The notes under the pieces: generated by a model
Seen by the model: the letters and a program-made list of their open reading frames with translations, nothing else
Databases searched by the model: none
What the model was told of the DNA's origin: nothing
In this document: in pieces, positions 49,092-51,016 of the stretch
Layout: every line of letters begins with the position of its first letter
How positions within the stretch are numbered: position 1 is the first letter of the stretch
Position numbers and translations under genes: made by a program
NCBI GenBank assembly: GCA_002356455.1
Contig: AP017968.1
Location: 2,232,001 to 2,296,000 of the forward strand
Length of the DNA stretch: 64,000 bases
Direction of reading: 5' to 3'
Source of the DNA: Fusobacterium varium
GTDB taxonomy: Bacteria > Fusobacteriota > Fusobacteriia > Fusobacteriales > Fusobacteriaceae

Positions 49092-50114
49092 TCAAATCAC
49101 CTCTTTTATCTTTTTATTTCTAAGATATTCCTTTAAAACATCAAAGAAAGCCTCTGTCCTAGCCATTACATGTGCAATATTTTTATTATATTTTTCTAAA
49201 GCTAATTTTAAAGATTCTTGTTCTATGGAATTTTTTTCATAATCTGAAAGAGTTTCAAAAATTTTTCTTAATTTCTCCTTTTCTTCAATAGTTTTATCTC
49301 TTTGCTCTTTATGTTCAAGATTCTTTTCAATCACTTTTTTTGCCTTTTTTTCTAAAATAGTATTTGTTTTTACAGGAAGAACATCACATTTTTTATTTTC
49401 TATAATCCAATTTTCTTTTAAGGCTTTGTATATAGCTCCATCTTCCCATCTTTTAATTACAGCTACTGTTAATACTGCTTTTATTCTTTCTAAATCTATA
49501 TGTTTAGAATAGACAAGGTCCATTATATTTTTACATGTAGATACACTTATCCCATGCATTTGTAGGACAGATTTTATTTGTTTTATTTTATCTTTTTCTA
49601 AAATTTCTGAAGAACTACTACTAGGGTCTATCTTATTTATATTATCTAACTTAGTAGTAGTTTCTTTGTTAGTATTCTTAATATTAGTTTTCTTCGGGGT
49701 ACATCCCATGTAGGTACTACTAGGTACATCTGATGTAGGTGGTGTAAATACATCTGGTGTAGTAGGTACATCAAATGTAGGTACTTCTAATGTATCTACT
49801 TCTTTATTACTAGGTACATCTAGTGTAGGTACTTTTTCTACATTTTTTAAATAATATCTATTAGATTTACCTTTTAATTTTTCTATTACAACTAAACCTT
49901 TATCTGCTAAACTTTTTGTATATTTTACTATTGTTCTAGTATCCTTTATCCCTAGTTCTCTGGCTAAAGTTTCTAATGCTGGATAAGCATATTCTTTTTT
50001 TCCTGTATGTCTTGCTAAACAGGCATACAGCATTTTTTCATACAAGTTTAAATCAGTTCTATCTATTAATGCATTATCTAACCAAAACCAATCCTTTTCT
50101 CTTAAATCTCTCAT
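49092..50114 (-). CDS. Replication initiator/organizer with internal iterons
   Basis: 340 residues. The N-terminal 90 (DLNLYEKMLYACLARHTG, LARELGIKDTRTIVKY) is a winged-helix replication-initiator domain. A flexible Pro/Thr/Ser linker (about 93-175) with repeated VPTxDVP units encodes the DNA repeats at 49699-49829. A C-terminal domain (about 178-240) of DnaD/loader-like helices and a charged coil follow. GAGGAAT ribosome site lies in a hairpin. Confidence 0.78.
   Translation of the reverse strand: MRDLREKDWFWLDNALIDRTDLNLYEKMLYACLARHTGKKEYAYPALETLARELGIKDTRTIVKYTKSLADKGLVVIEKLKGKSNRYYLKNVEKVPTLDVPSNKEVDTLEVPTFDVPTTPDVFTPPTSDVPSSTYMGCTPKKTNIKNTNKETTTKLDNINKIDPSSSSSEILEKDKIKQIKSVLQMHGISVSTCKNIMDLVYSKHIDLERIKAVLTVAVIKRWEDGAIYKALKENWIIENKKCDVLPVKTNTILEKKAKKVIEKNLEHKEQRDKTIEEKEKLRKIFETLSDYEKNSIEQESLKLALEKYNKNIAHVMARTEAFFDVLKEYLRNKKIKEVI
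49699..49829. repeat. Iteron array, probable phage origin
   Basis: Five copies of GGTACATC-N3-TGTAGG: 49699-49715, 49723-49739, 49747-49763 (weaker), 49765-49781 and 49813-49829. A decayed copy lies near 49789. Starts are mostly 24 bases apart, always a multiple of 6. Each copy is itself a dyad (TACAT-N3-ATGTA). An AT-rich stretch follows at 49610-49690. Confidence 0.75.
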
Positions 50115-50730: not shown

Positions 50731-50782
50731 TTTTCCCTCATGCGAGGGCTCAGGAAAGATTTTTATGAAAAAAAGATGCAAA

Positions 50783-50859
50783 TGGGAATGATTGGATTTG
50801 AACCAATACTAAAGGGTTCCTTATAAGCTCCCTATGCCTTACCTCTTGGCTACATTCCC
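50783..50859 (-). tRNA. tRNA-like gene with abnormal anticodon arm
   Basis: Minus strand: acceptor GGGAATG/CATTCCC, discriminator A, D arm GCCAAGAGGTAAGGC and T arm ATTGG-TTCAAAT-CCAAT are all canonical. The anticodon arm is too long: AGGG and CCCT enclose 13 bases (AGCTTATAAGGAA) where 7 are normal. Sliding the stem does not restore a normal arm. A C-G closing pair would leave loop TTATAAG (anticodon ATA). CCA is not encoded. Could be a decayed or modified tRNA, or a tRNA mimic. Confidence 0.6.
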
Positions 50860-51016
50860 ATACTTAGACAGGATATTCCTGTCTATATTAACCCCGTGTT
50901 ATAAATGTCTTTATTTAGTTAAAATATTCACTATTTCTATACTTTGTTTGATTTTATCCCTCCAAAAAGTTATAATATATTCACCACAAACAATTTTTAT
51001 TTAAGGAGGAACATTT

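Follow-up and report, generated by a model that had tools for sequence, protein, structure and literature searches.

The window, by which we mean the whole 64,000-nucleotide stretch of Fusobacterium varium DNA analysed here, carries phage terminase genes recognised in profile searches; the region is a prophage. On its minus strand, at 49092-50114, lies a gene for a replication initiator of 340 amino acids. The protein matches HTH_36 (PF13730; 2.1e-10, 40.6 bits against a cut-off of 25) and phrog_270, 'replication initiation protein' (1.9e-15); by these profile matches it is an HTH_36 phage replication initiator of the phrog_270 group. A tRNA-Tyr gene with the predicted anticodon ATA (50782-50860, minus strand) lies upstream of the initiator, at a distance of about 0.7 kb.

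A structure prediction, built from four sequences, divides the initiator into a predicted winged-helix N-terminal domain (NTD; about residues 15-92), a Pro/Thr linker (about residues 93-172; low-confidence or disordered in the model, 91-172) and a predicted helical C-terminal domain (CTD; about residues 173-340). The predicted NTD fold is compatible with the NTD structures of pSK41-type initiators (4pt7 and 4pql; Z 9.0 over about 86 residues), a score that generic winged-helix-turn-helix proteins equal or exceed. The CTD model found no convincing structural match in the PDB, and the designation 'DnaD-like' for this domain therefore rests on the PHROG label 'DnaD-like helicase loader' carried by three relatives (L011, L022 and L202). 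Sequence searches of the PDB gave no match, and scans of viral and genome contigs with the window protein as query gave no relative; the relatives described below were obtained by whole-genome searches and by scans for DNA patterns.

The code for the linker contains six 17-bp dyads (core TACAT-N3-ATGTA), which together span 49698-49829. Four are exact copies of the motif GGTACATC-N3-TGTAGG and two differ from it by three mismatches. In gene order, all on the minus strand, the putative iterons are iteron 1 at 49813-49829 (exact), iteron 2 at 49780-49796 (three mismatches), iteron 3 at 49765-49781 (exact), iteron 4 at 49747-49763 (three mismatches), iteron 5 at 49723-49739 (exact, and a perfect TACATC-N-GATGTA dyad) and iteron 6 at 49698-49714 (exact). 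Allowing up to three mismatches, the whole window contains 14 matches to the motif compared to an expected 1.64, a number reached by no shuffle. Genome-wide, TACATNNNATGTAGG occurs eight times, six of them in the window initiator gene and its paralog. Two TACATTTTATGTAGG sites 1.17 kb apart (967435 and 968607 of the same contig; L001 and L002) lie outside any initiator identified in this analysis.

A first-pass annotation of this DNA had reported five copies of the motif inside the initiator reading frame, mostly on a 24-base pitch and always at multiples of six. The motif and its location are borne out by the motif count and the shuffles, but the copies number six, and the start-to-start spacings of 25, 24, 18, 15 and 33 nt, with one neighbouring pair overlapping by two bases, rule out regular helical phasing of this kind. 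The dyad symmetry, the frame shift of iteron 6 and an inverted repeat (49613-49623 and 49651-49662) are additional to that account. The AT-rich stretch it placed next to the repeats is present (49625-49694; 79% AT) and is a candidate unwinding region, although in a window that is itself 72% AT it reaches only about the 85th percentile.

Repeats within a coding sequence may reflect selection on the DNA or on the peptide. The linker does contain the VPTxDVP peptide repeats previously noted, and one explanation is that a Pro/Thr-rich spacer has been selected as protein, the DNA repeat being a product of repeated codons. The repeat is visible in the protein and five of the six copies share one reading frame. 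Iteron 6, however, is an exact copy shifted by one frame, and encodes TYMGCT in place of PTxDVP; under host codon use this six-codon spelling has a probability of 7e-5, the rare codon ACC (3.7%) being used twice. Synonymous recoding of the window peptide yielded a mean of 0.30 exact copies, and in none of 20,000 trials did it yield four. The same test was weaker for L017, the paralog carried by another prophage of the same genome (P 0.01), and was not significant in L010 or, as regards exact copies, in L012. The last dyad copy is out of frame in both L017 and L012, and in L040, which belongs to another genus, two copies are out of frame.

Between the window gene and L017 the NTD code shows 13 synonymous and no amino-acid changes, whereas the linker code shows three synonymous and 10 amino-acid changes (P 1e-4 for the contrast): between paralogs the linker peptide drifts while most dyads are retained. 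Because of the out-of-frame, rare-codon copy and the NTD/linker contrast, we attribute the repeats to selection on DNA, and there is next to no probability that they are a protein feature; selection on the peptide repeat was rejected on the out-of-frame copies, the codon choice and the changes between paralogs. Judged on sequence, the DNA for the most part simply carries the linker peptide along with it. The first-pass annotation had regarded the peptide repeat as a by-product of DNA function and had looked to relatives for conservation of DNA rather than protein. Both expectations are supported, in that L017, L012 and L040 keep the dyad even where it is out of frame; the opposite pattern, peptide repeats kept with changed codons, is not what the relatives show. 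A second related prophage is found in L212 (1500500-1507500 of the same contig), with the same order of initiator, coiled-coil and VRR-NUC-like genes; the NTD of its initiator is identical in protein sequence to that of the window, and its linker has diverged.

If the dyads are binding sites for the initiator that encodes them, then the type of dyad should follow the type of NTD. Three relatives (L010, L012 and L040) have both the NTD and the dyad in common with the window gene, even though the CTD of L012 differs. Conversely, L011 has a CTD that resembles that of the window protein (68% identity over the compared stretch) joined to a RepA_N NTD (PF06970, 1.4e-14), and carries four copies of a different dyad, GTACA-N6-TGTAC. 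Other dyads are likewise found at the same gene position in relatives with other N-terminal domains. L018 (ATGACAAATTGTCAT), L050, L053, L201, L067 and L148 each have an array of their own that exceeds all 40 shuffles, and tandem arrays of three to six dyads between NTD and CTD code are a recurrent feature of these initiators. Since a shared NTD means a shared dyad and a swapped NTD a swapped dyad, we conclude that the iterons travel with the NTD. Among initiators carrying the triplet element described below, a check for dyad arrays found none that was clear in L202, L060 and L049, and weak ones in L022, L046 and others.

On the basis of these data we put at roughly 85% the probability that the repeats serve as iterons for the prophage initiator in whose own gene they lie and that the phage replication origin consists of them and the DNA immediately downstream, the proposed opening and CTD recruitment included. 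The features of the sequence that argue for this reading are the conservation of iteron DNA, the pairing of iteron with NTD, the position between NTD and CTD, and the adjoining element in initiators that lack a loader. By covariation and precedent, the winged-helix NTD would bind the dyads, probably as one dimer per dyad. By precedent, the resulting protein-DNA assembly would open the neighbouring AT-rich DNA, and the CTD would then recruit the host helicase and primase.

Palindromic sites for winged-helix-turn-helix proteins are also typical of operators, and every dyad here could be occupied by a dimer. The dyads might thus serve to control transcription, bound inside the gene by the initiator itself or by a repressor, with no origin present. 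Operators of this kind are very improbable here. No copy of the motif with zero to two mismatches is found at the promoter of the initiator gene, which rules out the motif as an operator at that position, or elsewhere in the window outside the array; furthermore, the recurrence in other initiators of tandem, NTD-cognate arrays between NTD and CTD code is the layout of the pSK41 and lambda origins. The dyads may have an autoregulatory role in addition to their proposed role in the origin.

Downstream of the iterons, as read on the coding strand, lies a further element, ACTACTACTA...AGTAGTAGT, at 49613-49662, here called the triplet element. Its left arm (49651-49662, minus strand), part of the AT-rich stretch, reads AACTACTACTAA on the coding strand and encodes TTTK; its right arm (49613-49623, minus strand) reads TAGTAGTAGTT and encodes SSS. 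The element is present in about 20 Fusobacteriaceae initiators, whatever their NTD or iteron type, and in the region of the element most of the proteins that bear it share only 17-42% identity with the window protein. Both arms show marked codon bias. Threonine in the run is encoded by ACT in 65 of 65 codons (21 genes), compared to 190 of 386 elsewhere in those genes (P 2e-18, kinship ignored), and serine in the right arm is encoded by AGT in 58 of 72 codons, compared to 149 of 441 elsewhere in the same genes (P 1e-13, kinship again ignored). The order of the arms is constant among these genes. In the window's own genome the arm pair (gap 10-40) is found only in the two initiator genes.

Four distant phage initiators on viral contigs (L067, L071, L148 and L168) also carry the element; as the pair itself was the search query, they demonstrate its existence elsewhere rather than its frequency. 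In L168 the right arm lies in another frame and is read VVV. Many further matches to the pair in contig collections were discarded, since they proved to be Thr/Ser-rich structural proteins that contain simple ACT/AGT repeats. A CTA/TAG strand switch beyond the arms reached a P of 0.03 only. Taken as sequence, the triplet element is conserved at the level of DNA across many initiators, and a limited literature search found no earlier report of it.

The Clostridioides phage and plasmid initiators L196, L198 and L199 have a related NTD and linker repeats, which in L196 and L198 are followed by AACAAGACTAATATTAACAAGACTAA (peptide NKTNINKTN), resembling KTNIKNTNK of the window gene; none of the three showed the complete ACT/AGT pair. 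A protein from a Methylomicrobium MAG (L098:1189-2550), for which no family match was found, has several VQKxNLA-type repeats (GTTCAAAAANTGAAC dyads) and then TTTTSSSCSSS, a layout as in the window gene.

The two arms of the triplet element are complementary, and folding of the single strand gives -6.6 kcal/mol (z -2.1). The element might therefore be a stem-loop – a cruciform, a single-strand hairpin or an mRNA hairpin – rather than a site recognised by its sequence. We consider this rather unlikely: the sequence of the arms is fixed and shows no compensatory changes, the gap between them varies in length (about 12 to 57 nt), and two initiators (L049 and L060) retain the left arm alone.

A Walker-A, DnaC-type open reading frame stands beside the initiator at nine of 11 Fusobacteriaceae loci without the element and at none of 22 with it (P 1.4e-6); the survey relied on motif searches of the flanking DNA (about 1.5 kb), and its statistics ignore kinship, several of the loader-bearing initiators being close relatives. 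L012 provides a natural experiment, combining the NTD and iterons of the window gene with a different CTD, an adjacent loader and no triplet element. The element is probably a helicase/primase-loading signal. A more specific proposal, which we advance tentatively and rate below an even chance, is that, in phage and plasmid initiators that lack a loader, the inverted ACTACTACTA/AGTAGTAGT pair constitutes an origin element not described before. It would be a strand-specific site for landing or priming and would replace the DnaC-type loader of sister phages, in hosts without detectable DnaA. Such a site could consist, for example, of two clusters of CTA primase starts that diverge from each other or of single-strand sites for the initiator CTD. 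In the first case the arms would be DnaG start sites that prime divergent strands through CTA runs on the two strands; DnaG of several Firmicutes prefers CTA (PMC5429622), and the Rep protein of pSK41 contacts DnaG (PMC5703833). In the second, they would be bound as single strands, in the manner of the TnnT sites of DnaD (PMC10201434).

A further option is that the triplets are DnaA-trios (3'-GAT-5'), and hence a site for the host's DnaA. TAG triplets beside an array of initiator sites fit the DnaA-trio consensus and orientation (PMC8287927), but DnaA domain IV (PF08299) is matched in none of 61 Fusobacteriaceae genomes, and on this account the option is disfavoured in this host. In addition, none of 12 genomes of the genus passes the DnaA cut-off (TIGR00362), and a putative RPA-like initiator occupies the place of dnaA in the host. 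A DnaA site is accordingly a distinctly poor candidate for the triplet element. The host protein in question, of 596 amino acids, is encoded where dnaA would be expected (L210:371-2161, positions 371-2161 of the chromosomal contig, upstream of recF-dciA-gyrB-gyrA); its match to RPA, 'Replication initiator protein A' (PF10134), is weak (24.4 bits against a cut-off of 27), and ATTAT..ATATACA repeats lie upstream of its gene (L210 1-370).

If the repeats are iterons, as we propose, then nature offers in them a clean demonstration that a protein linker can be dictated by an origin. The pairs of NTD and dyad, in which the same NTD goes with the same dyad and a swapped NTD with a swapped dyad, provide a ready series for studies of incompatibility and NTD specificity. 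The part that could change thinking is the triplet element: it is conserved as DNA, no adjacent loader was found beside any Fusobacteriaceae carrier, and the hosts have no detectable DnaA. Should it be a landing site for helicase or primase, the encoding of strand-specific loading at DnaA-less origins would become directly testable on a small plasmid.

An origin inside an initiator gene is an arrangement of an already known kind (lambda O, pSK41, pPR9); what appears to be new is the triplet element, together with its association with initiators that lack a loader. The first-pass annotation had called the origin lambda-like. As an analogy this holds, since the lambda origin consists of dyad iterons inside O with an AT-rich stretch beside them (PMC6022878), although the AT contrast is weak for the window genome. 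As a statement of membership it does not: Phage_rep_O (PF04492) is absent from the Pfam matches of the window protein up to an E-value of 1, its one O-like PHROG match is weak (phrog_391, 6.9e-6), the iterons are irregularly spaced, and no lambda-P-like loader gene was recognised downstream of the initiator. The triplet element, for its part, resembles the DnaA-trios and BUS of oriC in that its TAG/CTA triplet repeats adjoin an initiator-site array (PMC8287927), and the DnaD recognition element in having TnnT motifs on its complementary strand (PMC10201434); it differs from both in possessing two inverted arms rather than one, in lying within a phage gene and in belonging to a host family without detectable DnaA.

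The RepA_N/pSK41-pPR9 type is the nearer known system. In pSK41 the Rep boxes are central in the rep gene, encode a dispensable linker and are bound by the winged-helix NTD; in RepA_N plasmid initiators NTD and origin are exchanged together, as one unit, while the CTD to which they are joined is conserved; and the staphylococcal chimera pPR9 has a PF13730 NTD on the pSK41 CTD (PMC5703833). The window gene shares with pSK41 RepA the tandem putative initiator sites in a central, linker-encoding part, and with pPR9 an HTH_36 (PF13730) NTD, while L011 joins a RepA_N NTD to a CTD close to that of the window protein. The window protein differs from RepA_N initiators in matching HTH_36 only and not RepA_N (PF06970), and its system differs from those of pSK41 and pPR9 in being that of a prophage rather than a plasmid, in its dyad, and in the additional ACTACTACTA/AGTAGTAGT element.
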